From the IMG/VR virus record IMGVR_UViG_3300025616_000016, positions 1 through 39,531 of that record: a DNA stretch of 39,531 nt; one strand, 5' to 3'. Under the pieces are notes generated by a model that worked only from the letters and a program-made list of their open reading frames with translations, was not told the DNA's origin and ran no database searches. The position numbers were made by a program, and so were the translations under genes. This stretch comes from a virus. Shown here one piece after another: positions 7,730-28,700 of this stretch (within the stretch, counting starts at the first letter, position 1; the number at the start of each line of letters is the position of its first letter).

Positions 7730-9819
7730 TAAAAATTTAAACGGAATTTATGATGCCCACAATCATATACTCTATAAAATTTAGAATTGTTCATATTTTC
7801 TTCTTCTGTTTTATTAGGATCAAATTTATCACCAAGCAATTTAGATAATTTATGCTTTTGACATTGATATCTTGAATATTGCATGTTACTACCACCATTA
7901 TAAAAATATCCAGGTTTTGTTATTCCTTCATATATAAATCCCGCACGTTTATAGCAACTACCTTCAAATAAATTATTATCAGAATATGTTATAAGTTCTG
8001 TTACCTTTAATATATTTTTAACATATGATATGAATTTCTCTATTCCTCCAATAATATAAAAATTATTCATTGTTACATATCGAATTAATTCTTTAGCATT
8101 AGAATTTTTATTAGTAAATCTATTTTCACCTATAGAAATATAAGATACTAATCTATTTTTATAAAACATCCCAATATGATTTAATGCCGCAGAAAATCCA
8201 TTAAGATGATATTTTTCACTAAACTTTCGTGCAACTTCTGGTGTAATACTTTTTATTTTACATTTTCTACCAAATATTTTATATTTATTACCTTTTATTT
8301 TATTACGTATGATACCATTGACTATTTTAGGTGTTATCATAATCGACTTACCCCAAAAATGTAATAAAGATATCCCCTGTTCCTTACATAATTGTTTTTT
8401 CTCTAGATGATAGTTTTTATCAGTATTATACTTAGTGCTATGCCAATATTCTCCATTACATTCTATTGCAATTTTTAATTCTGGTATATAAATATCCAAT
8501 TCTCTGGATTTTATAACATCTCTACAATTTTTATTATATGTTATATTCATCTTATCTAACATAATTCCTACATATTGTTCTAATGTTGAATTTTTAAAAC
8601 GTCCTATTGGTGGATATCCGGTGTAATAAGCATTAAATATTTCATTGTTACAAGTTTTTCTCCAAGGAAATTTCTTATTAGTATCTTCTATCCATTCTTC
8701 TATAGTAAATTCTGGTATACAAAGATGTTTAAATCTTTTAAAGTTATCATATGCTTTTATTTTAGCATCCAACTTTGACTTTTCTCGTATTTCAGGTAGA
8801 TTCATACAACACGTTACTCCATATTTTTCTAAACATGTATCCTTTGATTTTTGAGATATTTCTTTTAGTTGCATCGGATTTTCAACGCCATATTTTTTTA
8901 AAGAATTTTCTTTTCTTGTTTGTATAGATCTTTCTGTCCAATCTCCATGTATTTCTTTAAAATGATCCATTATTTTAGATGGATTTTCTACACCATACTT
9001 TTCCATACAAGTATCTGTATATTTTTCAAGTTTAGTTCTTGTATCTAATGCTTTAATCCTATCATTTTCTATTCGTTTTATTTCATTCAACTCTAATCTT
9101 TTATCGAATGCCTTTTTCTTATTAACATCTAATTTAAATGGAGATGATACTCCATATTTTTCTATACAAGTATTCTTTCGTTTTTCTATTGTTTCTTCAG
9201 TTACTATTTTTCCAGTATGTTTTATAGAACTTGCAATATGCGATGCTTCAGTTGATGAATATACCTGATAACAAATACTTTTTATATTAAATTTTCTTTT
9301 TATTTTAGCAATATCACAAATAGGGATTTCTTTATAATTTTCTCGATATAAATGAAATGCTTCTTCATTCGATTCTATAATATTCAAATCAAATCCTCGT
9401 TTTTCTAATTGAACCCAACAATGATTAATAAAAATAGGATATCGCTTTGATACATTAGCCTTCATTTTTCTAAATTCAGTTTCTATTATAGTTTCATCAT
9501 ACTTATAATACAATTTTTTTATCTTACTTTCTAATTTAGTTTGGGGAAATATAAAATTTAATACTCTAAGTTTACCTAATCTATTATAATATGTTTTATT
9601 TATACTCTTTATTAAGTTTCCAGTTATAGGACACTTATAAGTTTCATCAATATTATATGCAATACAGAAAACTCTCTCTTTGAAATCATCATTTTTAATC
9701 CATTTCGTAATAGTATTGATTTGTGATATTTCTTCCTCCGTAAATAATCCCGCCTTTCTTCGTATTACATATTTCCCTTCTTCTATAAGTCTTAAGCACT
9801 TTTCTTGTAATGTTTCCAT
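7726..9819 (-). CDS. Vsr-like homing endonuclease with four KYGV repeats and GNAT-like C-terminal domain
   Basis: 697 residues, the largest of the three related nucleases here. A residue 1-110 region carries CPITGNLIK. Four repeats follow between about 215 and 355: CIEKYGVSSPFK, CMEKYGVENPSK, SLKKYGVENPMQ and CLEKYGVTCCMN, each followed by a basic helix. The Vsr-like core is near 405-490 (SRELDIYIPELKIAIECNGE, YWHST, ISLLHFWGKS). The C-terminal domain (GRKCKIKSITPE, YHLNGFSA, RYVTMNNFYIIGGIEKF, YSDNNLFEGSCYKRAGF, VYDCGHHKF) is full length. It sits between the neck gene and gene 21, and has its own sigma70-like promoter, so it appears to be an inserted selfish gene. Confidence 0.85.
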   Translation of the reverse strand: METLQEKCLRLIEEGKYVIRRKAGLFTEEEISQINTITKWIKNDDFKERVFCIAYNIDETYKCPITGNLIKSINKTYYNRLGKLRVLNFIFPQTKLESKIKKLYYKYDETIIETEFRKMKANVSKRYPIFINHCWVQLEKRGFDLNIIESNEEAFHLYRENYKEIPICDIAKIKRKFNIKSICYQVYSSTEASHIASSIKHTGKIVTEETIEKRKNTCIEKYGVSSPFKLDVNKKKAFDKRLELNEIKRIENDRIKALDTRTKLEKYTDTCMEKYGVENPSKIMDHFKEIHGDWTERSIQTRKENSLKKYGVENPMQLKEISQKSKDTCLEKYGVTCCMNLPEIREKSKLDAKIKAYDNFKRFKHLCIPEFTIEEWIEDTNKKFPWRKTCNNEIFNAYYTGYPPIGRFKNSTLEQYVGIMLDKMNITYNKNCRDVIKSRELDIYIPELKIAIECNGEYWHSTKYNTDKNYHLEKKQLCKEQGISLLHFWGKSIMITPKIVNGIIRNKIKGNKYKIFGRKCKIKSITPEVARKFSEKYHLNGFSAALNHIGMFYKNRLVSYISIGENRFTNKNSNAKELIRYVTMNNFYIIGGIEKFISYVKNILKVTELITYSDNNLFEGSCYKRAGFIYEGITKPGYFYNGGSNMQYSRYQCQKHKLSKLLGDKFDPNKTEEENMNNSKFYRVYDCGHHKFRLNFY

Positions 9820-10836: not shown

Positions 10837-12747
10837 TTATGCTTCTGGTGGTGGAGTTTGTTCAGTAGGGGCTTCTGTACCTCCTGCTGGTGCTTCTGTA
10901 GGTGTTTCTGCCTCTCCTGCTTCTGGTGGTGCTTCTGCTTCCGCATTGCCAAATTCTGGTGGCATTTCTGCGCCTCCAATTTCACCACCTGATGGCATCT
11001 CCCCACCTCCACCTCCTCCCCCACCTGCTGGCGCACCTTCTCCTTCCACTGCCCCACCTGCTGCTGCCGCAATTTGTTCTCTAAAATTAGGACCAGATGC
11101 TTTAATTTGAGTTAATTCCCATTCTAATGCAGCATCTTTTCTTAACCATTCACGATTTTCAGTCATTTGTTCATCCGTTAATCCCAAATAATACTTTTGT
11201 GCATATGAAGGAGCCATTGATTGGTTTTGAGTAGATGTAGAGAAGTTATCAAACTTAAGTTTTAATAACTCTTGTTCTCTCATAGCCATAAATGACGTAG
11301 GAACGTTAAATTCAACATTAACTGCACGTTCTCTTAGTTTACATTCTTTCCATATTTTGCGTAATTTTAAATGAACTATAAAACTATCTCTAATGCTAGT
11401 CGCAAATTGTCTTTGAATACGAATTATATAACGTGCAAAACGCAATTCTTCTCTAGTTATTTCAGTTCCATCAGTAAATTTAGCAGAACCGCCAGAATCC
11501 ATGATAAATCTACTTGCAGGAACTTTCATTGCTTTATATAATTTCTTGAGGAAATATTCCAAATCTTTCATTTCTCCGAGGTTTGATCCACCTTGAAGTG
11601 TTGTTACATCAGTACCATTTCCTTGTGCATCTTTCGGGAACCAATAAGAATCAAGCATACTTTGTGGGTCATAAACGTTAGTAACTCGACCACCTTGAGG
11701 TCCAGATCCACCAGATGTAGTATCATAATTCTTTCTGCTCCAATATTGTTGCATTAAACGTTTTAAGTATGCTTCGGCTTTTGGTGCTGGCATATTTCCA
11801 GTAAATACTTTAAATACCAAACGTTCTGGTGCTCTAACTAATCGATAAATTACTATACTATCTTCAATTAATGATAGTTGTCTATATGCTCTTTTTGCAT
11901 TTTCTATATATGGAAGTCTAATCGTTTTAAATTCATTCCAAATACCAGTATGAACATAAGTAACTTGACTCTTTTGCAAGAATAGTATCTCTTCTTTATC
12001 CTTTTTATTAATACTTGTTAAAGGTTGTATTAATGGTTTTATTAATAAGTAACCTTTAATTAATTCATTTTGGGTATTTTGGTAAACTGGATTGATAAGT
12101 TCGCTTGGAATACTAACAATTCCAACAATTCCTAAATCTGGATTATCTTCATCTATAATATTTTCAAAAAACAATTCACCATCTGTTAAAAACTGTCTAA
12201 AATATTCCCAACCAGTATCTTCTAAGTCATAAATATTAATAAACTTTTTAAATTCTTTTTCTACAGTATCTTTTATTTCTTGAGAATAATCTCCTCGTAA
12301 TTGAAACGTAACAATGTTATCATTTTCATCCTTTACGATACATTCATCTGCAATTTCATCCATACAGTCTGCCATTTCTGCGTATGATGCCATTCTTCTA
12401 TAATCCATTAATCGATTAGTTTTATCTTTATCTACACTTGCATAAACAAATGCTTGATAATCTTTATTAATGATAATACCTGCTGAAGTGCTATCGCCTA
12501 AATTTGGATCATTGGGTTGAGAAACAAATATAGATTCATCATTTATTAAATCATCTCTTCTTGATGTAACATCTCTAAAAATTTCATATTTAGGATTTTT
12601 TCTTACCATTGAATCAATAATTTGATAAGCGTATGGTAATTTAGATATAAATGCCCCTAATAAATTAGATTGTGGGAATCCTTGATTTGTTGTAGGATAT
12701 TGCCCACTTTGAGGTATTGCAGCTGGTGCATAAGGTTTTTGTATCAT
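10837..12747 (-). CDS. 20: Portal vertex protein, T4 gp20-like, with low-complexity C-terminal tail
   Basis: 636 residues (T4 gp20 is 524). Family signatures are clear: DYRRMASYAEMADCMDEIAD near residue 123, FLTDGELFFENI, VRAPERLVFKVFTGNMP, and the run VTTLQGGSNLGEMKDLEYF followed by LKKLYKAMKVP (T4: EITTLPGGQNLGEMDDVNYFQKKLYKALNVP). It forms the 12-subunit portal through which DNA enters and leaves the head. The final 80 residues are an Ala/Gly/Glu/Pro tail with a run of eight glycines and PTEAPAGGTEAPTEQTPP; this stretch of DNA is much richer in C/G than its surroundings. A 27-nt separated ATTAAATA may be a weak late promoter. Confidence 0.95.
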   Translation of the reverse strand: MIQKPYAPAAIPQSGQYPTTNQGFPQSNLLGAFISKLPYAYQIIDSMVRKNPKYEIFRDVTSRRDDLINDESIFVSQPNDPNLGDSTSAGIIINKDYQAFVYASVDKDKTNRLMDYRRMASYAEMADCMDEIADECIVKDENDNIVTFQLRGDYSQEIKDTVEKEFKKFINIYDLEDTGWEYFRQFLTDGELFFENIIDEDNPDLGIVGIVSIPSELINPVYQNTQNELIKGYLLIKPLIQPLTSINKKDKEEILFLQKSQVTYVHTGIWNEFKTIRLPYIENAKRAYRQLSLIEDSIVIYRLVRAPERLVFKVFTGNMPAPKAEAYLKRLMQQYWSRKNYDTTSGGSGPQGGRVTNVYDPQSMLDSYWFPKDAQGNGTDVTTLQGGSNLGEMKDLEYFLKKLYKAMKVPASRFIMDSGGSAKFTDGTEITREELRFARYIIRIQRQFATSIRDSFIVHLKLRKIWKECKLRERAVNVEFNVPTSFMAMREQELLKLKFDNFSTSTQNQSMAPSYAQKYYLGLTDEQMTENREWLRKDAALEWELTQIKASGPNFREQIAAAAGGAVEGEGAPAGGGGGGGGEMPSGGEIGGAEMPPEFGNAEAEAPPEAGEAETPTEAPAGGTEAPTEQTPPPEA

Positions 12748-12804
12748 TTTATTATAGAGTTAATTGTTAAAAACTATTTAATCAAAATATATCAATTTTC
12801 AAAT

Positions 12805-14619
12805 TTAAATAGTGGTAGTTGTCAAATATGTTCTTAAATCTATTGCATATGATATTAATGCCGTGTTGGGTTTTATGTTAGTTTGTGATATATAAATATT
12901 CATAATACTTGATACATAATCAACCCAAACATATACTGGTGTTCCTTGAACTCCATATATTGGTAATATTGGAGTAGACATGGTGAATATAGGACTTGCG
13001 GTAATAAGTGATGATGCAACATCGCCATTAACATCGATTTCTACATGATTAGTATTTGGATCAAATTCTGAATTATAAAATGTGTCTAAACTTACTGATA
13101 TACTATTTAAAATACTACTATAACCTAATCCACCACCTCCACCTCCAGCAATATTAGTATTACTTTGTAATATAAATGATAAACCATCTGCATGTCCATA
13201 ACCACCACCCATTGCAACTGTAAATGTTGCATTCCAATCTATTAAATTGCCATTTTTATCAATAATAATTTGAGGATTATTATAATATATATTACCACTA
13301 GTATCTCCAATATTTGGCGTTAATCTTATTAAGTTATTAATATTAATAGCATTTCCTAATAAAATAGAATCTTGTAAAAATCCAGAAAATAATAGATTTT
13401 GATAATCGCTATTCCATGTCATATCATATAACCAATGTTCATTCCAACGTGATCCTGTACCTGCACCAAATCCAATATAACATGCATTTTTACCTAATAT
13501 TGGTATAATAATTGGGTGTACAGGATCTATTGTTCTAATCGTCGGAAATGTTGTTAATTCCGCTCTTGATTTTGTATTAATAATAGAAAAATTATTACCA
13601 GTTTGAATTCCGTACATATTACCATTAATACTATTACGAACTTTCATAATATGCAATGGAGCACTATTTATAGTATCATATGAAATAGGACCAACAACAG
13701 TATTTGCTATAGAATTCTGATTGGTATTCATACTATATGCTGTAATAGAAGGATAGAATGATGATATTGAACTAACTATTTTTGTATATGTATGAATTGC
13801 GTTATAATTTCTAGGATCATTTATATCATTTGGATATGCTCCAGTATATATAAAACTAGTATCAGGGGTTGAATATCTAGTAACGGTTTTAATGTCAGAT
13901 CCATCACCAAAATCCCAAATTATACGTTCATATGGAAAACTACCACATAATGATGCACTTGGACATATTTGTATAGTTAATGGGGATGTTCCAATTGCTG
14001 GATTTATATTAGTATGTAACTTTGCTATAGGTAAAATCTCTAAAACTTCTATCGCATCAATTAATGAACTTTGCGTATATGAAACTGCATAATAATTAGA
14101 AGTTTGTGTATTACAACTAGCATCTACAATTTTAGAATTTCCCCAAGTTGCTGTATTATTTCCAATTGTACTAACATCTTTCCAAGTAAGAAAATTAGGA
14201 GTATTGGATTGTAAATTTAACCAATTCCATGTTTTACAAAATTTACCAAAACATTTATTTTCAGTAATAGGTGTAACTATAGATAATAAAGATAAAATAT
14301 TTTCTTGAATAGTTAAAGATACAGAATATTTACCGGGCATTGTATATGTATGGGATACATTTTCTTTTGAAGATGTTGTAATAGTGTTTGTATATTGATT
14401 GTAATAATCTCCAAAATCCCATATATAATATGCATAATCATTTGTTGTTAAATTATCTAATGTTGAAGTATTTTTAAAACTAACCGTCAATTCTGGTGCA
14501 TATCCTTCTATATCATATCCTACAAATGTTGCATTAGATGATGTTGTTGGATATATGCCATTCCATTTAAAGGTATTTGACACTGTTGATCCGCTTAAAA
14601 TATAGAAATTAGATGTCAT
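12805..14619 (-). CDS. Putative adhesin: two PKD domains plus L-type lectin domain
   Basis: 604 residues. PKD domain 1 spans about 40-105 (YYIWDFGDYY, then SHTYTMPGKYSVSLTI). PKD domain 2 spans about 198-298 (RIIWDFGDGSD, AIHTYTK). Residues about 405-600 resemble an L-type (legume-like) lectin: GHADGLSFILQ (476-486) carries the metal-site Asp, SISVSLDTFYN (506-516) matches the VEFDT strand, and DPNTNHVEIDVNG (520-532) matches the second metal and sugar loop. A six-glycine run precedes the LDTF strand. Known domains of this kind bind carbohydrate, so the protein probably sits on the virion surface or tail tip and contacts host glycans. It is first downstream of the giant structural gene and just upstream of the portal gene. 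Confidence 0.8.
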   Translation of the reverse strand: MTSNFYILSGSTVSNTFKWNGIYPTTSSNATFVGYDIEGYAPELTVSFKNTSTLDNLTTNDYAYYIWDFGDYYNQYTNTITTSSKENVSHTYTMPGKYSVSLTIQENILSLLSIVTPITENKCFGKFCKTWNWLNLQSNTPNFLTWKDVSTIGNNTATWGNSKIVDASCNTQTSNYYAVSYTQSSLIDAIEVLEILPIAKLHTNINPAIGTSPLTIQICPSASLCGSFPYERIIWDFGDGSDIKTVTRYSTPDTSFIYTGAYPNDINDPRNYNAIHTYTKIVSSISSFYPSITAYSMNTNQNSIANTVVGPISYDTINSAPLHIMKVRNSINGNMYGIQTGNNFSIINTKSRAELTTFPTIRTIDPVHPIIIPILGKNACYIGFGAGTGSRWNEHWLYDMTWNSDYQNLLFSGFLQDSILLGNAININNLIRLTPNIGDTSGNIYYNNPQIIIDKNGNLIDWNATFTVAMGGGYGHADGLSFILQSNTNIAGGGGGGLGYSSILNSISVSLDTFYNSEFDPNTNHVEIDVNGDVASSLITASPIFTMSTPILPIYGVQGTPVYVWVDYVSSIMNIYISQTNIKPNTALISYAIDLRTYLTTTTI

Positions 14620-14627
14620 ATTATTAA

Positions 14628-17600
14628 TTATGTTGATATTACATTAAAATTATAATCAGTATACCCATAATTATTAGTAAGTCTAACTGGTATCATATAA
14701 TCACCTATTTGTGTTGGTATTCCACTTAAAACTCCAGTAGTAGAATTTAATGATACAAAATTAAATGTATTATTAATTAATGTATAATTTGTTACTGTAT
14801 TTAATGCATAAAGATTAAATACAAATGATGATAAGGTAGTTGATAGTATATTTGTAGTTTTAGTTAATTCTAAATTTCCTAATATTGGAGGTAAAGGTTC
14901 ATTATTAGTTGTTGTATATACTCCAATATTAATTAAAGGATATCCATAAACATTTTTAATATAAACTTCTATTAAATCATTAAAACCAGAAATATTACTA
15001 ACTATCGTAGATAATAAATATTCTTTAGAGACATAATCATAACTTAATAATGGTCTATCAACAATATTAGAATATCCTAATAATGCCATAAATACTGACG
15101 CATCTTGAAAATTATTTGGAAATATCTTTTGAAAATTGCTTGTATTTATATCTAAACTATATAATTCTACATTAAAAACTCCAGAAGATAACCAAACCAC
15201 ACTAACAATAAGTTGTTTTTCTATCGGAGAAAACCAATATTCACCAATTTTAGCAAAATCATAATCATTTAAATTCGTATTATTAAGTTCTTTATTTATA
15301 TTAGAGGTTAATGGTAATGCTAATGATAGATATTTTGATTTATTTGACTGTCCCGTAATTTTATCTGTTGAATAATCATAATTTAAAGTTTCTATTATTA
15401 ATACTCCAGATGTTTCAATAATCATAGTATCAAAATATATATCAAAATTTTTAATACCATTTCCAGTTAATTCATCATATAAATTAGAATTAATATATGG
15501 TGAAAATATAGATGATAATGCAATATTTGCTGCATTAACAGTTTGTCCATTAGTTCTAATCCAAAGTTCACCAAGAACTTCATTTCGTTCAATGGGAGAT
15601 ACACTACTTATATTCTTATATAAGGTATATTGATTTCCAAATATATCTGAACACCAATTATACATTTGTTTACCAGTAGTTTTTAATACTTGAGTTTCTA
15701 CCCATGAATTTACATTAACTTCCCCTGCAAAATTAATTGGGTAATTTTTAGTATCTGTCCAAACACTATCTTGATATCCCCCCCAAGGACTATGACGACT
15801 ATTCGGTTTAATAACACCTAAACTACCATTATTATGAGTTTCAATATCAGATTGGTATGGTATAAATTTTTGATATTTTTTAGAAATTGCTCTATCAACA
15901 TTTCCTGCTGAATTTCCTGTTAATATAGATTCTTTCATCCATGTATTATCTTCCTTTATTATATTATATGGAGTATACGTATCCTTTTTTGATAATCCCC
16001 TGCCACCAACTATAAATTTCGAATCTTCTACTAATGCAGAAACTTGAATAGAAGATGTATTATAAATTGATGTATAATTTTTACCAACATATACTGAAGC
16101 CCCTAAATTATTAGGAATAAAATATCCACCACTATCATATTCAGTATATAAATCTTGTAATGTAGGAATTAACGCAAAAGAAGGATAATTTCTATTAGAA
16201 AGATTTGCATATGGTTGATAACTTATAATTGCAGAACTTAATGAAAAATCGCTCTGTGTTAATGTATTAGTTATTGCCTTTACTGCTGTAATATTCCATA
16301 CAAAATTACCTAATGAATTATAATATATTTCTACTAAATTATTATTTACATAGTTATTAAGAATAATATCACTAGGAATATCTAATGCACTAGCATTTAA
16401 TACTAAAGAATTACCAACTATACTTGATAATTGAGTAGTTTTACTATTCATTAATATTTTATTCCAAGTTGTGGTATTAACTCTCTTTCGTAATGTAATT
16501 GGTTGATTCCAAGAAAGATCATTAGAATTATTTTGATATTCGAAATAAATATCACTATTCAATACTATATCAGATATTATTGGTTGTGATACTATATTAT
16601 GTAAATCAACTACGCTTAGTGATGAACCCCAACTTTCTATAGATTTATTATTAGTTACAACTGATTTATCTGTATACCCTTTAACCCAAATAGGTCTAGC
16701 CCCTAAAGATTTACCATCATATGTAAATATATTATAATTCCAACCATATAAATCCGTTTCTAAAACAAATCCAGGAACTGGTGTGCTATATGATGTAATA
16801 GACGGAACATATGTTTGTTGCGTTGATGCTGATATCACTGGAATATTAGTAAATGCATAAATTCCATTATTTAATATACCTGGATACTTACTAAATGCAT
16901 TTGAGTTTATATATGCTGAAAGTGATACTAAATAATTTCCAGTAAGATTAGGAACAAATGATAATACAAAATTAGAATCGACTACTACATTAGTTATAGT
17001 TGATGTATATGATGATGTTCCCGTAATATTATAAGAAATATTTCTTATAACTGGATCGGATGTATATATAGTTCCATTAGGATCAGTTAATTTCCAATGA
17101 ATTGCTGATATATCATTCATTAATACGCTTGGATATTGTTGATACGTTGCGGTTAAGGATGAAACATTTATATTACTATTGGTTGGATAATTTACATATA
17201 TAGAACCTATATTTGGTTGGTCTATAACAACATGATCATAAGTAGACCAAATTGTATTTATATTTTTACTTACATCATTATCTCCATTAATAAACCCTGA
17301 TAATATAAATGAAGATATCGGTGTTTTTTGATATAATAATACGTCATTAGCATTAAAAATCATATCCGATGGTTTATTTCCATTATACCAAATATCATTA
17401 GCAACATCATGAAATCCTTTTATCCATATCGTATTATTTGAAGTATATGCATGTCTAACTGTATAATCAGGAAATGCAGAAAGGGTTAAATCTTGTGTTG
17501 ATGTAGTAGTTCTATAATAGATATAAGCACTTCCTTTTTTAAGCAACATATTATTACTCCAACTTCCATATCCCCAATTTGGAGTAGATAATGTTGAATT

Positions 17601-19679
17601 AAACCATGTAAAATCTGAACTATTATTATATCCTAATAAATCACTACCAACCCAAGTATTTAAATCAAATTCCAAAGGAGAAAATGTATCTAATGCTATA
17701 AAATCCGCAACACTTCCAAAATCAGTATAATTCATCCCATTATGTCCAAATGGGGTGAATTGAACTTGTCTACATGTGCATAATGCATTATTATTAGCAT
17801 TTAAATTATTTAAATATAAACAATTATTTTCATGTTTCGTTGAAATAAATATAGTATTAACTAAAGTATCATTACCAGTCCAAACAAATCTAGTTTTTGT
17901 TCCTGATTTAAAATTTGCAGTAAACCCTTTTTGTGAAATACTTTTAAAATTATTTTTTGTAATATCTGATCCTGATAGCCATGCACATTCTAACGCATTT
18001 GATTGTGTGGATTGATAATTAGGAACTTTATATATAATATCCGCAGAACTTATATGATTAGATGCTGTCGCGTATGGTATATATAAAGCCGATAATGGCA
18101 TAGAATTACATATATTAGTAGTAGAAACATCAGGAAATGCATCAATATACGTAATAATATTATCATCTAATTTGGTATATGGCCATTTAATAGTAGTAGA
18201 ATCTCCTGAAAGTATTGATAAATTAGTTTTTGTAATTTTATATAACCATGCTTCTGATATATCTCCATTATAAGACGATTGGGATATATCAGGAGCGATA
18301 TCCCATGTTCTTATTTTATTAGCATGAGTATATAAAGAATTTGCATATGCTCCATAATCTACTAATGTTGTATTATTAATATTAATAGGTAATGTTGAAC
18401 TTACAGAATAAATAGAACTCCAATAAATTTCTTCAATTGCTTTCTTATATCTATTATCCAAATATGTAAATGTTGGATCATAGGTTAAGGATGGACCAGT
18501 CCATTCTAATGAATCTCCACTTAATCCATATCCTGCAAATGGATATCTAAATATTGTTTTAGAATTTGCACCAAAAAAAGCATTAATTGATAAATCATTA
18601 GAAATATCATACTGTTTATAATTTAACCATGCGCCATTTATTCCATCAACACTTTTAACAAAAATAGTATCTGCTAAATCAATACTCGATCCTCCAATTC
18701 CAAGAGTTTCAATATTAGCAGAACTTAATGGAAGGGATTTATATATTGGATAACTATATGCTAATGATTCATATACACCAAATGGATAGTAGAAAAAATT
18801 ATTACCTTCTACTATATTTACAGCATAATAATCATTAGAAATACTTGATGCTTGAACATTAATAGTATATTTCGATTCTCCTAAATATTTTCCTTGATCG
18901 TTAATTAAATCTATTGCGGATAGATTTAATGCTGATAGATCAAAAGTTCCTGCTGAGTATGCCCAATCTAAAGATGTTAATGATAATCCTAAACTATTAA
19001 AATAGGTTTCTGTTGTTATGTCTTGATTATTTATGTAACTAGATAGTGGAATCTCTAAACTTCTATCAAAATATTGATGATCATCATATAATTCTTCTAT
19101 TTCTATATTAATTGTATCATTAATAGCACTTAGTTCTGGTAAATTTGTCCATACTGAAGCAGGAACTGTTATATAAGTATTACTTCTTTTACTATAATTA
19201 GATAATATAACATCAGTTAATTCTTGTATTCCTCCTCTTACAGAACCTACCAAGTTATATTTTAATTTTGTTTCTTTTAATTTTTTCCTTTGTTGTAAAT
19301 AATATAAAGAAATATTTTTTAATTTAGTTGCAAAAAATGGAATTTCTAATAATAATTCCTTTTCATCACTAAGATTAACATTACTATACCATGTTTCTTT
19401 CTCTATATCAGTTAAAAACATCTGTAATCCGTTTAATAAATTTAAATATTTTATACGAATTAAATTTAAAGAATTTGTCTCAGTTTGATTTTTATTTTGA
19501 TACCAAGTTATTAAATATTGATTATATTGTTTATATGCTTGATCAGGAATTACATTTGAATATGTTGCATACCAATCTTTAAAAGAAAATGGAAAATCTT
19601 TATCTAAATCAGGAGATACTAATCTCAAAGGATTTGAATATTTTTCTAGTTGTTGAGGAGTATTAAATAAAGTTTGCAC
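14628..19679 (-). CDS. Giant virion protein, 1683 aa, with baseplate-like N terminus and Ig-like end
   Basis: Starts with GTG at 19677-19679; a late-promoter variant lies 12 nt upstream. The first 170 residues are helical and aromatic (FPFSFKDWYATYSNVIPDQA, then YKQYNQYLITWYQNK), unlike the rest, and look like an attachment region to the baseplate. The remaining 1500 residues are Ser/Thr/Asn/Tyr-rich beta sequence without transmembrane segments. The last 80 residues (LNSTTGVLSGIPTQIGDYMI, then PVRLTNNYGYTDYNFNV) match the putative Ig (He_PIG) pattern. I recognise no enzyme domain. Its place between the PKD-propeller and PKD-lectin genes, 8 nt from the latter, suggests a long tail fibre or baseplate appendage. 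Function is inferred from context only. Confidence 0.65.
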   Translation of the reverse strand: MQTLFNTPQQLEKYSNPLRLVSPDLDKDFPFSFKDWYATYSNVIPDQAYKQYNQYLITWYQNKNQTETNSLNLIRIKYLNLLNGLQMFLTDIEKETWYSNVNLSDEKELLLEIPFFATKLKNISLYYLQQRKKLKETKLKYNLVGSVRGGIQELTDVILSNYSKRSNTYITVPASVWTNLPELSAINDTINIEIEELYDDHQYFDRSLEIPLSSYINNQDITTETYFNSLGLSLTSLDWAYSAGTFDLSALNLSAIDLINDQGKYLGESKYTINVQASSISNDYYAVNIVEGNNFFYYPFGVYESLAYSYPIYKSLPLSSANIETLGIGGSSIDLADTIFVKSVDGINGAWLNYKQYDISNDLSINAFFGANSKTIFRYPFAGYGLSGDSLEWTGPSLTYDPTFTYLDNRYKKAIEEIYWSSIYSVSSTLPININNTTLVDYGAYANSLYTHANKIRTWDIAPDISQSSYNGDISEAWLYKITKTNLSILSGDSTTIKWPYTKLDDNIITYIDAFPDVSTTNICNSMPLSALYIPYATASNHISSADIIYKVPNYQSTQSNALECAWLSGSDITKNNFKSISQKGFTANFKSGTKTRFVWTGNDTLVNTIFISTKHENNCLYLNNLNANNNALCTCRQVQFTPFGHNGMNYTDFGSVADFIALDTFSPLEFDLNTWVGSDLLGYNNSSDFTWFNSTLSTPNWGYGSWSNNMLLKKGSAYIYYRTTTSTQDLTLSAFPDYTVRHAYTSNNTIWIKGFHDVANDIWYNGNKPSDMIFNANDVLLYQKTPISSFILSGFINGDNDVSKNINTIWSTYDHVVIDQPNIGSIYVNYPTNSNINVSSLTATYQQYPSVLMNDISAIHWKLTDPNGTIYTSDPVIRNISYNITGTSSYTSTITNVVVDSNFVLSFVPNLTGNYLVSLSAYINSNAFSKYPGILNNGIYAFTNIPVISASTQQTYVPSITSYSTPVPGFVLETDLYGWNYNIFTYDGKSLGARPIWVKGYTDKSVVTNNKSIESWGSSLSVVDLHNIVSQPIISDIVLNSDIYFEYQNNSNDLSWNQPITLRKRVNTTTWNKILMNSKTTQLSSIVGNSLVLNASALDIPSDIILNNYVNNNLVEIYYNSLGNFVWNITAVKAITNTLTQSDFSLSSAIISYQPYANLSNRNYPSFALIPTLQDLYTEYDSGGYFIPNNLGASVYVGKNYTSIYNTSSIQVSALVEDSKFIVGGRGLSKKDTYTPYNIIKEDNTWMKESILTGNSAGNVDRAISKKYQKFIPYQSDIETHNNGSLGVIKPNSRHSPWGGYQDSVWTDTKNYPINFAGEVNVNSWVETQVLKTTGKQMYNWCSDIFGNQYTLYKNISSVSPIERNEVLGELWIRTNGQTVNAANIALSSIFSPYINSNLYDELTGNGIKNFDIYFDTMIIETSGVLIIETLNYDYSTDKITGQSNKSKYLSLALPLTSNINKELNNTNLNDYDFAKIGEYWFSPIEKQLIVSVVWLSSGVFNVELYSLDINTSNFQKIFPNNFQDASVFMALLGYSNIVDRPLLSYDYVSKEYLLSTIVSNISGFNDLIEVYIKNVYGYPLINIGVYTTTNNEPLPPILGNLELTKTTNILSTTLSSFVFNLYALNTVTNYTLINNTFNFVSLNSTTGVLSGIPTQIGDYMIPVRLTNNYGYTDYNFNVIST

Positions 19680-19691
19680 AGATTATTCAAT

Positions 19692-19699
19692 TACTTATC
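19692..19699 (-). promoter_or_regulatory. Variant late-promoter octamer upstream of the giant gene
   Basis: Reads GATAAGTA on the minus strand, identical to the octamer at 10824-10831, 12 nt before the GTG start. Confidence 0.4.
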
Positions 19700-19715
19700 A
19701 ATAAAAAAATTAATT

Positions 19716-22700
19716 TCATTGAACATCCATCCATAAATTTTTTGTTAGTAAATAATTGAATATACTATCAACAATTCCATTTTCTATATACCAATCAGCG
19801 GAAAGTGTCATATCTAATGTTGTATATGGACTATTCCAATCGATAATATTATTTGTTAATGTATTTGTTCCACTTAAATTACATCCCCATAACCTTTGAC
19901 GAGATACTGATGCAAGATCTAACATATTTTTTATTTCAGCAGGAAAATTGTTACCATAATCAAATAATGGTTGATCAATTTCAAATGCTAAAGATTTTAA
20001 TTGATCTATATTACATGTATCTACATCTGACACATTTGATGTAAAATTTGCAATTTTTGAATAAATTTCTTTTCCCATATCTTCAAAAAGATTTGAATTC
20101 GATATTGTTCCATCACCAACAACAGCAGGTAAAAATTCATCAAATAATTGCGTATTATCATATAAAACTTCTGGAAATGCTAATGATTTCATATATCCTG
20201 CCATATTAAAACTTTCATTAACTTTTCTTATCTCATATGAATTATTAAAATCTGCAACATTAAAAGGTGCGGATACTCCAGATAATATTAGATTAGATGA
20301 TAAATCTTCTGCATATTTTTGATACCATACATTTCCAGTCCAATCTCCAGTAACACTTGCAGATTTTGCAATATTTGAACTTACTACACTTACAATAGTA
20401 TCATCAGTATCAGAAAAATAGTATATTAAATTAGGTCTTTGTTTTGCATTAATAACAGTAACATCAGTATTTGTATTAAATGTTGGATCAGCATTAAACA
20501 TATGTGCATTATTTGTTATAGCATCAACTACCCAAACTCTATTATACACATCTACTGATAATGCGCCAATTTCTTCATCATCTTCAAATGGTGATAATAT
20601 TTCAGATGATGGAGAAAATATTACTCTTGGCGAAGTATCATTAAGTGTAGTGGAAGGTATACTAAACGACCAAGTATTTATAATAGTTTTACTAACACGA
20701 TCTATATAACCAAAACTTCTTACCCCAAATGTAAACCAAATATTATTATTGGCATCCAATGAAATATAATTAGGAACATTTATACCAGAAATAGATGTTA
20801 ATAATGTTCCGGTTTTACTATATTGATTTATTCTTCCTAAAATTGTACCCGAAGTTGTTGATGTTGATGTGCCAAACGATTCAGTAACCCAAATATTATT
20901 TAATTTGTCAACTGCAATATTCATAGGAGTTGAATTTGCTGATAAGGTAATATTAACTGATGATAATCCTGCTGATGTATATTTAATAAGAGCACTAGAA
21001 TTTGGATTGCAATATGTAACCCAAATATCATTATTCCTATCAGTTTCTACAACAGGAGGTTTCATTAAATAATCATCATATAATCCAAATTCTTGAGTAT
21101 TATTAGGACATATCGCAAATAGAAAATTAAAATTCTTATCAAACTTTAAAACTGATAAACTATTATATAAAGAAATCCATATATTAAAATGTTTATCAAT
21201 ACTTATATATGAAGGAGTAGTTGGACTAGTTACAGGATCTTCAGTTATAATACTTGATAGATTTAATGTGCTTAATAAAACTCCAAAACTTGAAAATTTA
21301 TATAAACAATCTTGTTCACCATCAACTGCTAAAATTTCATAATTTCTAGGATCAATTGCTATACCATATATACCAGAAAATCCAGACATATTATAGTTAA
21401 AAGTATTATTATTAGTTACTACCGGAACAGGAAATTTTAAAATAGATCCTTCTACTACTAATCCATTACTTCTATAATAATCTACAGTAGGACAATTAAC
21501 TGAAATTGTAGGTTGTGGGGTATATATAATTTTACTAATAGATCCTATATCTGGAGTAGGAATAACAACAAAATTATTAGGAGCATATTTAGAAGGATAT
21601 TGAAATTTATAATCACCTACAGAAATATTATTTGCTGTAGTATATGCGATTAATGTTACATTATCAAACGCACTAGATGAGGTAACTGTAGTAAATCTAT
21701 AACCTCCATTTCTAAATCCATTATCATCAGTAGCAATAAAATATAATGGAGTATCTTCACAAGATATTGAAGTCATACCTGTTTGTGAAGATAATTTAAA
21801 ATTTATAGTATTTACTTCTCCTTCGATATTACTATTAGGATATGTAAATACTACGCCAGTAGCAATATCAATACCATCAGTACGTTCATTAAGAATATAA
21901 TCTCTACTATAACTATGTGCAGTAATCATAGTAGGAATTTTAACATTTGTCCATTTTTGTGGATAAATTTCGTCAATATAATTTCCAGTAACTCTTAAAT
22001 AATCAGGAGATATATCTCCAACTTGCCATGTAGTAACAGCACGAGATACTTTACTATTAGAAAAACTTTTATATGAATATATATTCGAATCTAATGGATT
22101 GATAAATCCAGATGTTTGTAATGTTGCAGATATTAATAATGGACAATTATTTGTAATATCACCACTACCAATACTATCAACATAATAAACTGATGCTTCT
22201 GCGGATGCTCCAACAACAGTATTATTATAATATATAGGTTGTGATGATAATACTATATTAGTTACTGCATTTATTCCTGCGGGATCTGTTGTAAATTTCC
22301 ATGTAGGATTTATAAAATTCCACTTTTCAGGAACTTCTTGATATGGTATAGATTTAGAATTAACAGCATATAATTCTAATATAAGAGGTTCAGATGATAA
22401 TGGTATTTGTGCAGAAAATACTTGAACGATAAATGGTGATGTTGTTGGCATACCGACAAGACCATAAGCAGTTGGTAATGCGAAAAATGTAACATAATCA
22501 TCAACATAAGATGATGCAGTTATATTCATATTTGAGGTGCTAAAATTATTATAAGCATCAAATGTAGAAAGCGTTACTGTATATATTCCAGCATAGTTAT
22601 AAATATGATTTACAATATTTTCATTATAAATATAAGTTCCATCCCCAAGATTCCAAATAAGTTGAACACTACTATTATTTATACCTGTATTAGAATTAAC

Positions 22701-22775
22701 AAAGGTAAATTCAGTTGCGTATATATATCCAATTGAATCTGATGCTAAAGTAAAATTTGATGTTAAATTTGACAT
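19716..22775 (-). CDS. Baseplate-associated protein: PKD domain, NHL-like propeller, baseplate C-terminal domain
   Basis: 1019 residues. An N-terminal PKD domain spans about 5-90 (LIWNLGDGTYIYN, NHIYNYAGIYTVTLS). Residues about 465-765 hold at least five NHL/SMP-30-type blades, each with a D-x-x-x-N-I-W-V core: ISIDKHFNIWISLYN, VETDRNNDIWVTYCN, IAVDKLNNIWVTES, ISLDANNNIWFTFG and LSVDVYNRVWVVDA. The last 160 residues (SYEIRKVNESFNMAGYMKSL, FDEFLPAVVGDG, IANFTSNVSDVDTCNIDQLK) resemble the C-terminal domain of phage baseplate proteins seen near gp6. The stop is 36 nt from the giant gene, and the start is 1 nt from the gp6 stop, so it is in the baseplate operon. It is probably a virion component with a binding role. 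Confidence 0.75.
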   Translation of the reverse strand: MSNLTSNFTLASDSIGYIYATEFTFVNSNTGINNSSVQLIWNLGDGTYIYNENIVNHIYNYAGIYTVTLSTFDAYNNFSTSNMNITASSYVDDYVTFFALPTAYGLVGMPTTSPFIVQVFSAQIPLSSEPLILELYAVNSKSIPYQEVPEKWNFINPTWKFTTDPAGINAVTNIVLSSQPIYYNNTVVGASAEASVYYVDSIGSGDITNNCPLLISATLQTSGFINPLDSNIYSYKSFSNSKVSRAVTTWQVGDISPDYLRVTGNYIDEIYPQKWTNVKIPTMITAHSYSRDYILNERTDGIDIATGVVFTYPNSNIEGEVNTINFKLSSQTGMTSISCEDTPLYFIATDDNGFRNGGYRFTTVTSSSAFDNVTLIAYTTANNISVGDYKFQYPSKYAPNNFVVIPTPDIGSISKIIYTPQPTISVNCPTVDYYRSNGLVVEGSILKFPVPVVTNNNTFNYNMSGFSGIYGIAIDPRNYEILAVDGEQDCLYKFSSFGVLLSTLNLSSIITEDPVTSPTTPSYISIDKHFNIWISLYNSLSVLKFDKNFNFLFAICPNNTQEFGLYDDYLMKPPVVETDRNNDIWVTYCNPNSSALIKYTSAGLSSVNITLSANSTPMNIAVDKLNNIWVTESFGTSTSTTSGTILGRINQYSKTGTLLTSISGINVPNYISLDANNNIWFTFGVRSFGYIDRVSKTIINTWSFSIPSTTLNDTSPRVIFSPSSEILSPFEDDEEIGALSVDVYNRVWVVDAITNNAHMFNADPTFNTNTDVTVINAKQRPNLIYYFSDTDDTIVSVVSSNIAKSASVTGDWTGNVWYQKYAEDLSSNLILSGVSAPFNVADFNNSYEIRKVNESFNMAGYMKSLAFPEVLYDNTQLFDEFLPAVVGDGTISNSNLFEDMGKEIYSKIANFTSNVSDVDTCNIDQLKSLAFEIDQPLFDYGNNFPAEIKNMLDLASVSRQRLWGCNLSGTNTLTNNIIDWNSPYTTLDMTLSADWYIENGIVDSIFNYLLTKNLWMDVQ

Positions 22776-22776
22776 A

Positions 22777-24582
22777 TTATATTATTACTATTTTATTAAT
22801 AAGATTATTTAAATCGAATAAATATGGATATTCGAAAAAATTAAATACTATATTATTCGTTGTCTGTAAAGTATCTAATGATGAATAGTCAGGGTTCCAT
22901 ATAAATAACGACAATCCATTAATTTGAACACTATTATCAATTCTTCCAGTATAAAAACTATCAATACCATTAATATTTAATATTTGTTGTGATAGTGAAG
23001 TAATATCAAGAGTTTGTCCTAATGTAAGATTAGATTTACTAAAATATGATGTAAATATATTTATAACGTCCTTAATAATAGATGAATTATCTCTATTATT
23101 ATATACATTTTTTTTAATATATAATCGACTTAAACTTTCATCAGTAACGGTAATATTTGTATTAGAATTATTAGAATTAGTTCCTATTGCTACTGCTTTA
23201 TATACAGGATCAGCATATGCAATTTCAGCAGTCATACTCTTTAATAATTGTACAGAAGTTGTAATTAATTCCTTTTGTGGTGGTAATAAATATGATAATG
23301 TTGTATTATCTACAGTTCTAGGAACAATAAATAAATAAACATTATTAAAATTACATGCATCTGAAAATTGAAATTGATTAAATAATGCTCTACCATTTAA
23401 AGAGGGGTCAGTTAATCCTAAATTATAAAAATATTGTAAATATTGTGTTGTATATGTAATATTATCAACAACTGTAACATCAGATATTAAATTAGAAAAA
23501 TTAGTATTTATAAAAGATTTATAATCATTTTCTGTTACTAATCTATATTGACTACGAAAAACAGAAGGAGCTGCAGCACGTATTTCATCCGGTGTTTGAA
23601 TAGTTTGAACTGGAGTAGATGCAGATTTATTAGAAAATGATATATATGCTAAATCAGAATTTGATATTATATCATAAGAATTATTTGATAATACACTTGC
23701 AATAATCTGATTAAATTGTGTTGTATTATATTCAGTTGCTTTAGCGGATGTTATAGCATTTTTACCAACTTCGCCAACACTTCCATCACTTTGTAGATAA
23801 TATACTGCAACTTTATCATTCGGTTGTAGTTTTACTCCATTAATATCATCTCCGAATGTGATTTCATATTGATTATTACCATTTAATCGGATTTCATATT
23901 TTTCTGCTATACTATTTTCTAAATATAGACTATTACTTTTTGTATATTGCGACCAAATACCTAAATTATTTCTATTTACATAAACATCAATATTAAAATG
24001 ATCGATATTAATATTAGTTGCAGGAGAAAGTAATACCATTTCATTTTCATCTCCAATTGCTGTATATAAAGGATATTCCTGATAACTACCTTGATATAAT
24101 AATGCTTGACTACTTAACTCTGTTAATCCTTCTGAACTTAGTGATACAGTTTTAACAAATGTTTGCTCGGAATTAAAAGAAAATTTTATACCATTAACAC
24201 TAACTGAAGTATATCTAGGTATAGTATAAGTTCCTGCATTTAATGTATCTACAGTTGCTGAAAATGGCAATGTAGAAGTTTGATATCCTAATGGATTATA
24301 ATCAAGTAATTTTACTATTCTATTTATATTTTCATATAACTGTGCCTCTGTAAACATAGATTCAGATGCAGTTTTATTTAAATAATACATTAATGTATTA
24401 AATGTATAAGCCACAATATCAATAACTGATGCAAGATTACTTCCTATATAATTTTGGTCAGTAAAAACTTGTGTAGTATTTAGTCGATCTAAAATTAATT
24501 GTCGTAATGAAGTTGCATCAAAGGCAACATATTCATTTGATGGTATATTGTAATTATTAAAATTCGTATTATTTGTTGCCAT
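22777..24582 (-). CDS. 6: Baseplate wedge protein, T4 gp6-like (gpJ family)
   Basis: 601 residues (T4 gp6 is 660). The N terminus has the conserved LRQLILDRLNTTQVFTDQNY, then NLASVIDIVAYTFNTLMYYL and ENINRIVKLLDYNPLGYQTS. The middle has IRAAAPSVFRSQYRLVTEND, followed by YKSFI, the hallmark of gp6/gpJ proteins. It forms the ring of baseplate wedges around the hub. It begins 6 nt after the gp25 stop and ends 1 nt before the propeller gene, so the three are one transcriptional unit driven by the late promoter at 25101. Confidence 0.92.
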   Translation of the reverse strand: MATNNTNFNNYNIPSNEYVAFDATSLRQLILDRLNTTQVFTDQNYIGSNLASVIDIVAYTFNTLMYYLNKTASESMFTEAQLYENINRIVKLLDYNPLGYQTSTLPFSATVDTLNAGTYTIPRYTSVSVNGIKFSFNSEQTFVKTVSLSSEGLTELSSQALLYQGSYQEYPLYTAIGDENEMVLLSPATNINIDHFNIDVYVNRNNLGIWSQYTKSNSLYLENSIAEKYEIRLNGNNQYEITFGDDINGVKLQPNDKVAVYYLQSDGSVGEVGKNAITSAKATEYNTTQFNQIIASVLSNNSYDIISNSDLAYISFSNKSASTPVQTIQTPDEIRAAAPSVFRSQYRLVTENDYKSFINTNFSNLISDVTVVDNITYTTQYLQYFYNLGLTDPSLNGRALFNQFQFSDACNFNNVYLFIVPRTVDNTTLSYLLPPQKELITTSVQLLKSMTAEIAYADPVYKAVAIGTNSNNSNTNITVTDESLSRLYIKKNVYNNRDNSSIIKDVINIFTSYFSKSNLTLGQTLDITSLSQQILNINGIDSFYTGRIDNSVQINGLSLFIWNPDYSSLDTLQTTNNIVFNFFEYPYLFDLNNLINKIVII

Positions 24583-24588
24583 AAATTA

Positions 24589-25089
24589 TTATTGTGATTG
24601 GATTATCGTAAATGTTTGAGTGTTAACATTAAAAACAAAAGTCGATTGGACATTTACTAAATTTAATACTATAATATCCATATATATTGATATTACATAT
24701 TGATTATTATCAGGTTGTGCAACTACATTTATCGCTTTAATTTTAACTCTTGGTTCATAAATAGAAATTTTATTTAATATAGTATTTCCGATTGATTCAC
24801 CTGCTTGTTGTGATATTGGTTGAAATAAATAATAATCAAGATTCGTACCATATTCAGGAAATAAAATTCTTTGTCCTGGTCTTGTTGAAAATAAATTATG
24901 TAAAGAGTTTTCAATTGCGGCAACATCTTCACTAATTTTAATATCCCCTCCACGAATAGAATTAGGAAAATTAATGTTAGTGCTTACAAGTTTGGAATAT
25001 GTGATATCTAAGTATAAATCACGATAGATAGACCCCATTTGTGTCTTTGTATTGGATATATTATCTAAGGTTTTTATACGAATTGCCAT
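24589..25089 (-). CDS. 25: Baseplate wedge protein, T4 gp25-like
   Basis: 166 residues. The conserved gp25/GPW core is present: EDVAAIENSLHNLFSTRPGQ, followed by RILFPEYGTNLDYYLFQP and, later, a Y-E-P-R-V turn before the last strands. The EPR motif is the family hallmark. Gp25 connects the inner baseplate to the sheath initiator. It is the first gene of a minus-strand operon preceded by an exact TATAAATA late promoter, and is divergent from the plus-strand gene at 25133. Confidence 0.95.
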   Translation of the reverse strand: MAIRIKTLDNISNTKTQMGSIYRDLYLDITYSKLVSTNINFPNSIRGGDIKISEDVAAIENSLHNLFSTRPGQRILFPEYGTNLDYYLFQPISQQAGESIGNTILNKISIYEPRVKIKAINVVAQPDNNQYVISIYMDIIVLNLVNVQSTFVFNVNTQTFTIIQSQ

Positions 25090-25714: not shown

Positions 25715-25746
25715 AAAAAATCTCAATATAATGTTGAGATTTTTTT
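25715..25746 (+). terminator. Intrinsic terminator after the 185-aa gene
   Basis: Stem TCTCAA (25721-25726) with TTGAGA (25734-25739), extended by A6 opposite a T7 run, 7-nt loop, then poly-T to 25746. It isolates the reductase gene from upstream transcription. Confidence 0.8.
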
Positions 25747-25750
25747 GTTT

Positions 25751-25772
25751 TGTGTCATAATTAATAGACACA
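25751..25772 (+). repeat. Inverted repeat upstream of the reductase gene
   Basis: TGTGTC (25751-25756) and GACACA (25767-25772) flank a 10-nt AT spacer, 14 nt before the reductase ATG. It may be an operator or a small mRNA hairpin near the start; no function can be read from it. Confidence 0.4.
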
Positions 25773-25786
25773 AAGAAATTAATATT

Positions 25787-28700
25787 ATGTCAATACGAGC
25801 ACTTCAAGATTATACATTCTACGCAAAATATGCGAAATACAACAAAGATAAAAAACGCAGAGAAACATGGCAGGAAACTGTAGATAGAGTTTTTGAAATG
25901 CATGAACGTAAGTTTAAAGATATATTAGAAAAAAATGAAAATTTTAGGAAAGATTTCAATTTTGCAAAAGAACAGGTATTAAAAAAGAGAGTTTTAGGAG
26001 CACAAAGAGCATTACAATTTGGTGGTGATCCAATTCTTAAAAAAAACGCAAAAATGTATAATTGTTCAGTATCTTATATAGATAGAACAAAAGCATTTCA
26101 AGAATGTATGTATCTTTTATTATGTGGATGTGGTGTTGGATTTTCTGTTCAAGATAAACATATAAATAAATTACCAAATATAGAAACGCGAACAAAAGGG
26201 AAAAAAACTTTTATAGTAGAAGATACTATAGAATCTTGGAGTGATTCAATTGGGGTTTTAGTTAATTCATATTTTAGTAATAATGATAATATATGGAAAG
26301 ATTATCAAGGTTTTGAAATAGATTTCGATTTATCTAATATAAGACCGGAAGGTGCGCCAATCACAGGAGGATTTAAAGCACCTGGATCAAAAGGGTTGGA
26401 AGTTGCTATATCTAAAATTAAAGCAATATTAGATTATAGGATTTCGTTAAATGAAAATCGTATGCATGCTATTGATGCATATGATATTATAATGCATGCA
26501 TCTGATGCTGTATTATCAGGAGGAATTAGACGATCAGCAACTATTTGTATTTTTAGTAAAAGTGATAATGAAATGCTAAAGGCAAAAACTGGAGATTGGT
26601 TTATTAAAAATCCACAAAGGGGTCGTAGTAACAATTCTGTAGCTTTAATAAAAGATAAAACAACTCGTGAAGAATTCTATGAAATTATGGAATTTGTAAA
26701 AGAATTTGGAGAACCAGGATTTGTATGGCTTGATAATGAAGATATAGTATATAATCCTTGCCAACCATCTTGGGCTACGGTATTAACACCTAATGGAATA
26801 TCCACAATAGGGGATATAAAAGAAGGTGATAAAATTTGGTCCGAAACTGGTTGGACAAATGTGATAAAAAAATGGTCTACTGGTATAAAAAAAGTTTATA
26901 ACTATAGAACAACATCTGGAAATTTTTACGGAACAGAAAATCATAGATTAATATCTAATGGCGAAAAAATAGAAGCAAAAGATTGTGAATCTATTGATAT
27001 TTTACATGGAGAATATAAAAATAATATATCAATTAATATACAAGATGTAATGGATGGGTTAGTATTTGGTGATGGATCAGTTCATGAAGCAAGTAATAAT
27101 TTAGTATATCTAATAATAGGGGAACACGATAATGTTTATTTTAATAGCGAAATATCAAATCTTATAATAAAAGATAGGAATAAATTACATCATGGAGCAT
27201 ATGAAATAACTACTACAATTAAAAATACAGAAATTCCATTAACATATAATAGAATAATACCTTCTAGATTTATATATGAAAATAAAAATAAAGTTTGTGG
27301 ATTTTTAAGGGGATTATATTCTGCTAACGGAAGTATTTGTGGTAAAAGAGTTACATTAAAAGCATCTTCTTTTAATGTGATAGAAAAAGTCCAATTAATG
27401 TTATCATCTATAGGTATACGTTCATATTATACTACAAATAAAAGTAATACTATACAATTTTCAAATGGAACATATACATGTAGAAAAAGTTATGATTTAA
27501 ATATAACAACTGATATAGATAAATTTTCTAATATTATAGGATTTATACAAAACTACAAAACCGAAAAGTTGAATTCGATTTTAGAAAATAAAAAAGAAGG
27601 AAATTTTAATAAAAAAACATATGATATAATAAACAATGAATTTATTTCAGAAGAAGAAGTATTTGATATTACCGTAGATAATAATACTCATACATATTGG
27701 ACTGGTGGTGTTAATGTCTCTAACTGTGTCGAAATTGGAATGATTCCTAGATTAGAAACGGGAGAAAGTGGTGTTCAATTCTGTAATTTAACTGAAATTA
27801 ACGCAAAAAAAATAAAATCTTTAGAAGATTTCTTACAAGCAGCAAGAGCAGGAGCAATAATAGGGACGATGCAAGCAGCTTATACAGATTTTCCATATTT
27901 AGGAAAAATATCAGAAGATATAGTTAAAAAAGAAGCTTTATTGGGCGTATCAATGACAGGCATGATGGATAGTCCTGATATAATCTTTAATGAAGAATAT
28001 CAAAGATTAGCAGCACTAGAAGTATTAAAAGTAAATGAGATTATTGCAGGATATATAGGGATAAACCCATGCGCAAGAGCTACATGTGTCAAACCAGCAG
28101 GAAGCACTTCTTGTATTTTAGGTAGTGCAAGTGGTGTGCATCCACATCATGCAAAACGATATTTTAGACGAGTACAAGCAAACCGTTTAGAATTTCCGTT
28201 GCGACATTTCATGAAAACAAATCCATTAGCAGTAGAGAAATCAGTTTGGTCTGCTAATAATACAGATTATGTTATAAATTTTTTATGCGAAGTTCCATTA
28301 GGATCAATTACAAAAAATCAAATAAAAGCTGTTGATTTGTTGGAAAAAGTTAAATTAACTCAAAAAAATTGGGTAGAATATGGAACTCGTCCTGAAAGAT
28401 GCACTGATCCTTCAGTAAGACATAATGTTTCAAATACAATTACAGTAAAACCAGAAGAATGGGACGATGTTAGTAAATTTATATATGATAATAAGAAATG
28501 GTTTGCAGGAATTTCATTATTACCCGCATCAGGAGATAAAGATTACCCACAAGCACCATTCTGTTCTGTTCCTAGTATAACTGAATACAATTCACAATAT
28601 GGCGAAGCAGGACTTTTTGCTAGTGGATTGATAGTAGATGGTCTAAAAGCATTTAATGACAATCTATGGGCAGCATGTGACGCTATTGTGGGTATTGGAG

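Follow-up and report, generated by a model that had tools for sequence, protein, structure and literature searches.

The three large open reading frames (ORFs) that lie behind the gp25- and gp6-like genes of this DNA probably make up the periphery of the baseplate-wedge operon in an uncultured T4-like phage, in which the products of 1019 and 1683 amino acids (aa) would sit at the wedge and the 604-aa product would act as a lectin-tipped host binder. The window, as we call the whole stretch of 39,531 nucleotides that was analysed, is an IMG/VR virus fragment of 39.5 kb in which Pfam recognises head genes of the T4 type, namely gp23, the protease gene gp21 and the portal gene gp20; its gp23 is 36% identical to that of P-SSM2, 31.5% to that of RM378 and 28% to that of T4.

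The gene block behind gp25 and gp6

The gp25 and gp6 genes and the three large ORFs (1019, 1683 and 604 aa) all lie on the minus strand, one behind the other, with gaps of 6, 1, 36 and 8 bp between them, as a preliminary description of this DNA had claimed for the latter three, and the portal gene lies 57 bp beyond the 604-aa gene. As homologues of the block genes in L003 (related loci carry L numbers) are conserved at 38-45% identity, we regard the three large ORFs as real genes. The genes concerned are as follows.

24589-25089, minus strand: gp25-like baseplate wedge protein, 166 aa (PF04965, E 6.7e-13)
22777-24582, minus strand: gp6-like baseplate wedge protein, 601 aa (phrog_219, E 2.6e-31; hhalign 99.8% to cyanophage gp6 and 97.9% to T4 gp6)
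19716-22775, minus strand: 1019-aa protein in the gp7 slot
14628-19679, minus strand: 1683-aa protein in the gp8 slot, GTG start
12805-14619, minus strand: 604-aa putative receptor-binding tip protein, N-terminal part constant in relatives
34554-34898, minus strand: gp53-like small wedge protein, tentative (hhalign to T4 gp53 just 19%, E 0.0012; a conserved gene adjoining P32795/P34907 in relatives)
29165-30757, minus strand: 530-aa protein with an RCC1 propeller, of uncertain membership in the block, its slot being variable (PF25390, E 1.4e-50)

The RCC1 propeller at 29165, which the preliminary description had counted among a set of binding modules, is readily recognised. The slot that it fills, after the gene at 30785-31333, holds an RCC1 protein in L008-L010 and a partial one in L011, and unrelated ORFs of ~155-760 aa in other relatives.

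We scanned viral contigs with gp6, with the 1019-aa protein and with the 1683-aa protein and obtained 167 loci, among which some contigs or viruses occur more than once; after reduction at 70% identity, 57 non-redundant sequences of the C-terminal core (C-core) of the 1019-aa protein remain and 46 of the N-terminal core (N-core) of the 1683-aa protein. In every one of the 156 loci with a complete gp6 the gp25 gene lies upstream of it, and a 1019-like ORF is the next gene after gp6 in 147 of them; among the nine exceptions some are at a contig end and others have the profile match further downstream or in a second ORF. The 1683-like gene directly follows a complete 1019-like gene in 104 of 119 cases and lies further on in 6 more, and among the exceptions to this adjacency some are again contig ends, whereas L078, L080, L117 and L163 look like genuine differences. 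The neighbour set that the preliminary description had singled out is thus conserved in the IMG/VR relatives, and the order gp25, gp6, 1019-like, 1683-like is nearly invariant among them.

Since the genes that follow the block in relatives match the tail-fibre families phrog_4492 (E 6e-53 and 2e-38), phrog_892 and phrog_5939, and others among them carry laminin-G, GLEYA, FG-GAP or propeller domains, the locus appears to be the host-contact region. One such gene, at 4886-6544 of L181 (84886-86544 of contig G003), lies after the 604-like gene and encodes a 552-aa tail-fibre-like protein (phrog_4492, E 6e-53) that also weakly matches the cyanophage gp7 profile (E 2.8e-4), hinting at shared modules. 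In L103 a subtilase gene (12264-14294; Peptidase_S8, E 1.1e-26) stands between the 1019-like and 1683-like genes, and in L131 (2995-6426) the 1019-like protein is split into two ORFs, one with the PKD domain and the middle and the other with the C-core, and the 1683-like N-core is a separate ORF of 331 aa.

Cores, modules and known wedge proteins

The two large proteins are each built from conserved cores and from modules that are optional within the family, laid out as listed here.

22521-22754, minus strand: N-terminal PKD domain of the 1019-aa protein, residues 8-85 (PF18911, E 4.5e-7)
20436-21395, minus strand: NHL-type beta-propeller of the 1019-aa protein, residues 461-780 (phmmer to the designed Pizza6 propeller in the PDB, E 5.5e-9)
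19719-20378, minus strand: C-terminal conserved core of the 1019-aa protein, residues 800-1019, predicted to be partly helical (alignment A5)
18990-19679, minus strand: N-terminal helical core of the 1683-aa protein, residues 1-230 (alignment A6, 115 hits, 46 of them non-redundant at 70%)
16080-18989, minus strand: middle of the 1683-aa protein, residues 231-1200, which is cut down or replaced in compact members
14910-16079, minus strand: C-terminal conserved core of the 1683-aa protein, residues 1201-1590
14631-14909, minus strand: terminal domain of the 1683-aa protein with an Ig-like motif

The 1019-aa family, represented by 123 complete ORFs of 393-1893 aa, is defined by its C-core, which is present in all compact forms. 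A PKD profile is found in 114 of the 123, usually near the N terminus, and the NHL profile in 88, being missing from compact 693-aa forms (e.g. L132, L134 and L143); the Pfam Vgb_lyase match on the propeller of the window is weak and below the cut-off. Of the PKD-NHL-baseplate fusion that had been reported for this protein, the PKD domain and the NHL-type propeller stand, whereas the "baseplate" part matches no known baseplate family and owes its label to synteny.

In the 1683-aa family (98 complete members, 250-1859 aa) it is the N-core that defines membership and the middle that varies, as the profiles M1683a and M1683b, which cover it, are found in 44 and 58 of the 98; the profile of the C-terminal core (C1683) is found in 85. 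Compact forms of the two families, of 693 and 843 aa, lack the NHL and most of the middle; L190 has examples at 17542-19623 (693 aa) and 15005-17536 (843 aa). The protein had also been called Ig-ended, and by family profile it does possess a discrete C-terminal domain, present in 32 of the 98 members and in tandem in L008, yet nothing in Pfam or the PDB matches this domain (best E in the PDB 0.71).

Neither family matched any of 50,697 phage records in a translated search, and the cores of both gave no informative Pfam, PHROG or PDB match. AF2 models of the 1019-aa C-core (pLDDT 61) and of the mostly helical 1683-aa N-core (pLDDT 72), both of modest confidence, found no PDB structure with Foldseek, and the search of BFVD returned one uncharacterised 1033-aa protein (E 3.6e-7) that is probably a member of the same family. 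Both families appear to be undescribed so far; they are conserved across a large uncultured T4-like group, and placing them in the wedge slots provides a name for annotation and defines cores that can be tested.

Segments of the 1019-aa protein are 49-69% identical to their counterparts in L008, where gp6 is 65% identical, and those of the 1683-aa protein are 43-62% identical in L083, which is the same contig as L008. Within the subclade of the window all modules of the two proteins therefore diverge at similar rates, a pattern typical of structural proteins that speaks against a recent exchange of modules.

In T4, in the Kyanoviridae and in Vibrio phage K491 gp7 lies directly behind gp6 and is usually followed by gp8, and it is these positions that are occupied by the 1019-aa gene, 1 bp after gp6, and by the 1683-aa gene, the second after gp6. 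It is quite possible, if somewhat doubtful, that the two proteins are true orthologues of gp7 and gp8 that have diverged very far, in an ordinary T4 wedge operon with large insertions; their position is identical to that in T4 and the Kyanoviridae, and hhalign places a stretch of the 1683-aa N-core, K-x-K-Y-N-x-x-G-S-x-x-G, on the KGT/KGI motif of T4 and cyanophage gp7. That alignment, however, is not significant (E 0.04-0.25), and as the unrelated gp6 profile lands near the same place we dropped the coincidence. A hint of similarity between C1683 and gp7 (E 0.005) fell to E 0.067 with a gp7 family profile, and a gp8 signal is absent. In the core searches, run with HMMER and hhalign and with reversed-profile controls, no core exceeded a probability of 7% against gp7 of T4, of the T4 family and of cyanophages, with gp6 as positive control at 99.8%, or one of 0.3% against gp8, and T4 gp8 had no phmmer match to the 1683-aa family; none of these profile similarities, to T4 or cyanophage gp7 or gp8, was significant. 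Nor did the window, or either of the large contigs G003 and G009, yield a significant homologue of gp7-gp12. As homology to gp7 or gp8 could not be shown, we state the position and the likely role of the two proteins and not membership in those families.

The gene order of the window resembles that of the Kyanoviridae (S-SRM01, P-SSM2, Bellamy and S-CAM9), in which gp25, gp6, gp7, gp8 and a giant ORF follow one another; gp6 and gp25 are homologous, and there too a very large module-bearing protein comes right after gp6 (2514-4067 aa for the complete ORFs in the gp7 slot, and 5195 aa by the coordinates of the P-SSM2 record). In contrast, the two cyanophage proteins after gp6 have no detectable homology to those of the window, the three cyanophage gp7 proteins that were scanned have YHYH modules where the window has PKD and NHL, and cyanophage gp8 (~520-530 aa) is not enlarged. 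T4 shares the succession of gp6, two proteins in wedge slots and then host-contact proteins (gp9-gp12 in T4), but its gp7 and gp8 are of 1032 and 334 aa. The block had been set apart from the long tail fibres of T4, a contrast that is fair in itself, and yet the Kyanoviridae layout is very similar and relatives carry recognised tail-fibre proteins in the region.

In the Herelleviridae the protein called baseplate wedge 3 (Vp4 Gp119, A511 gp105) likewise comes after a gp25/gpJ pair and is enlarged in some phages and compact in others, whereas the module types differ and the cores of the window have no significant profile or sequence similarity to A511 gp105. In Bacillus phage Vp4 it is carbohydrate-binding modules that enlarge Gp119, and this protein binds cells of Bacillus cereus, whereas its compact, unenlarged Deep-Blue counterpart Gp177 does not (PMC11406892); we regard Gp119 as the closest tested precedent in mechanism. 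Beta-propellers are found at the baseplates of other phages in phi11 Gp45 and PhiKZ gp131 (PMC4901313), which are separate receptor-binding or peripheral proteins, unlike the NHL-type propeller of the window, which in the gp7-slot protein has a PKD domain fused on one side and a conserved core on the other. Our literature search found no paper that joins an NHL repeat and a PKD domain with a phage baseplate. The decorated baseplate wedge is a kind already known, from the giant gp7 of the Kyanoviridae and from Vp4 Gp119, and what appears to be new here are its two families.

The lectin-tailed protein and the proposed arrangement

The 604-aa protein consists of two parts, both recognised by Pfam, and the PKD-lectin protein of the preliminary description is confirmed.

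13504-14619, minus strand: constant base with a PKD domain, residues 1-372 (PKD_4, E 1.7e-12)
12817-13395, minus strand: legume-type lectin tail, residues 409-601 (PF00139, Lectin_legB, E 1.2e-24; PDB legume lectins, E 7.9e-11)

The base is 49-54% identical in L083 and 36-39% in L003. The match of the tail to PF00139 scores 87.7 bits against a curated cut-off of 26.3, and in an alignment with favin and pea lectin the Asp of the ADG motif and the metal-site motif D-T-F-Y-N...D-P...H are kept, so that the metal ligands Asp, Asn, Asp and His are conserved, and the Glu of the Mn site reads Ser. As these motifs align with those of the two plant proteins, and on what we take from general knowledge of legume lectins to be the roles of the sugar-binding Asp and of the Ca/Mn ligands, calcium and sugar binding by the tail is plausible.

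The lectin is absent from L083, and in other relatives the 604-like proteins carry a tail of 3 to ~240 aa that does not resemble it. No homologue of the lectin tail turned up in the related loci, in the viral-contig scan or in the GTDB scan, such scans being ones that find close relatives only, and within this range the legume-lectin tail belongs to this one virus alone. With a constant attachment part and an exchanged distal part in its family, the 604-aa protein is the only one of the three to behave, as judged from sequence, like a dedicated receptor-binding tip, and it is putatively classed as such. None of the 1019-, 1683- and 604-aa proteins has a PHROG or Pfam tail-fibre match that would relate it to the long tail fibre proteins gp34-gp37, and we found no paper that joins a legume lectin, a phage tail and carbohydrate binding.

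We propose that the 1019-aa protein takes the place of gp7 and the 1683-aa protein that of gp8, and that the C-terminal ~220 aa of the former and the N-terminal ~230 aa together with the ~390-aa C-terminal core of the latter would dock on the gp25-gp6 wedge. The inserted PKD, propeller and other beta domains would point outward and may touch host glycans. The 604-aa protein would attach via its constant PKD base, and its C-terminal, calcium-dependent legume-type lectin may set or widen host binding. We likewise infer the assembly of the three proteins into the virion, their location in it and their stoichiometry. As two proteins that are apparently standard parts of the tail base in many relatives from lakes and the sea are here combined with a swappable sugar-binding tip, the host grip is probably built partly into the baseplate, beyond separate fibres. 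This suggests that host specificity sits in the lectin-tipped protein and perhaps also in the wedge-borne modules, and if the modules inserted in the wedge bind hosts, as those of Vp4 Gp119 do, a prediction of host range from fibre genes only would overlook some of the parts that recognise the host.

Turnover is usually faster in adhesins than in wedge proteins. Behind gp6 the two large proteins are near-universal, their cores are conserved, and in the subclade of the window they evolve vertically and evenly along their length with no sign of module swapping; for these reasons we regard them as decorated core wedge proteins in the gp7 and gp8 slots, and consider it quite improbable that they form a separate adhesion apparatus merely beside the baseplate genes, even though their beta-rich modules are of the binding type and recognised fibre genes occur in the same region of relatives. 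From the distinct adhesion apparatus raised in the preliminary description there remain the binding-type modules and the tip-like 604-aa protein. Folds of the PKD and propeller types often serve as spacers and as scaffolds for protein interactions, and the subtilase gene inside the block of one relative indicates that other activities occur here, so that the propeller, PKD and lectin modules might have extracellular polysaccharide as their main target, or serve as spacers between proteins, and not be receptor binders. This we hold to be unlikely, as the residues of the lectin site are mostly intact and as PhiKZ gp131C and phi11 Gp45 are baseplate propeller proteins, phi11 Gp45 being a receptor-binding protein (PMC4901313).

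A further step from the decorated wedge that we favour would be to see in these families not gp7 and gp8 but an independent solution, that is, a baseplate periphery without gp7-gp12 in which host-binding arms made of propeller and PKD domains lie inside the wedge proteins and the place of the short tail fibres is taken by a swappable lectin protein. The phages so built would be a widespread uncultured T4-like group that may infect Bacteroidota. This is a speculative reading and, taken as a whole, rather unlikely.

Host signals and other genes of the fragment

A Shine-Dalgarno 4-mer within 20 bases upstream of the start was found for none of 22 genes of the window, as against 9 of 14 in the T4 region and 4 of 16 in the P-SSM2 region. 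In relatives AATAAT is common just upstream of the gp25 gene (92/163) and of the 1683-like genes (65/98). These data suggest that initiation is independent of the Shine-Dalgarno sequence in the window and its relatives, and as the absence of such 4-mers fits a Bacteroidota host, this is possibly the host of the virus, a lead that agrees with what was suggested for the Far-T4 phages (PMC7198788). The latter are uncultured aquatic T4-like phages that one study linked to Bacteroidota (PMC4360716, PMC7198788); the window resembles them as an uncultured T4-like phage, a likeness for which gp23 identities alone were compared and which does not imply placement in that clade. In Rhodothermus phage RM378, the sole Far-T4 isolate, no homologue of gp6, gp25 or the block was detectable, and a scan of GTDB genomes aimed at finding the host returned no relatives of gp6. 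As a candidate late promoter, TATAAATA was rejected, as its 26 sites against 21 expected are no enrichment.

Outside the block, the gene at 25745-29089 on the plus strand encodes an NrdJ-type ribonucleotide reductase. It contains, at about residues 340-600, an insertion that is probably an intein and that the 776-aa homologue in L005 and the ~663-aa homologues in other relatives lack. Three genes resembling homing endonucleases, with EKYGV-type repeats (925-2526 and 2517-3524 on the plus strand and 7726-9819 on the minus strand, the third matching DUF7487), flank or interrupt the head genes. At the ends of the fragment lie, on the minus strand, an ORF resembling a serine recombinase (112-702) and the C-terminus of a zinc-ribbon transposase-like protein (39267-39530), which, as judged from their translations only, are possibly parts of IS607-type elements.
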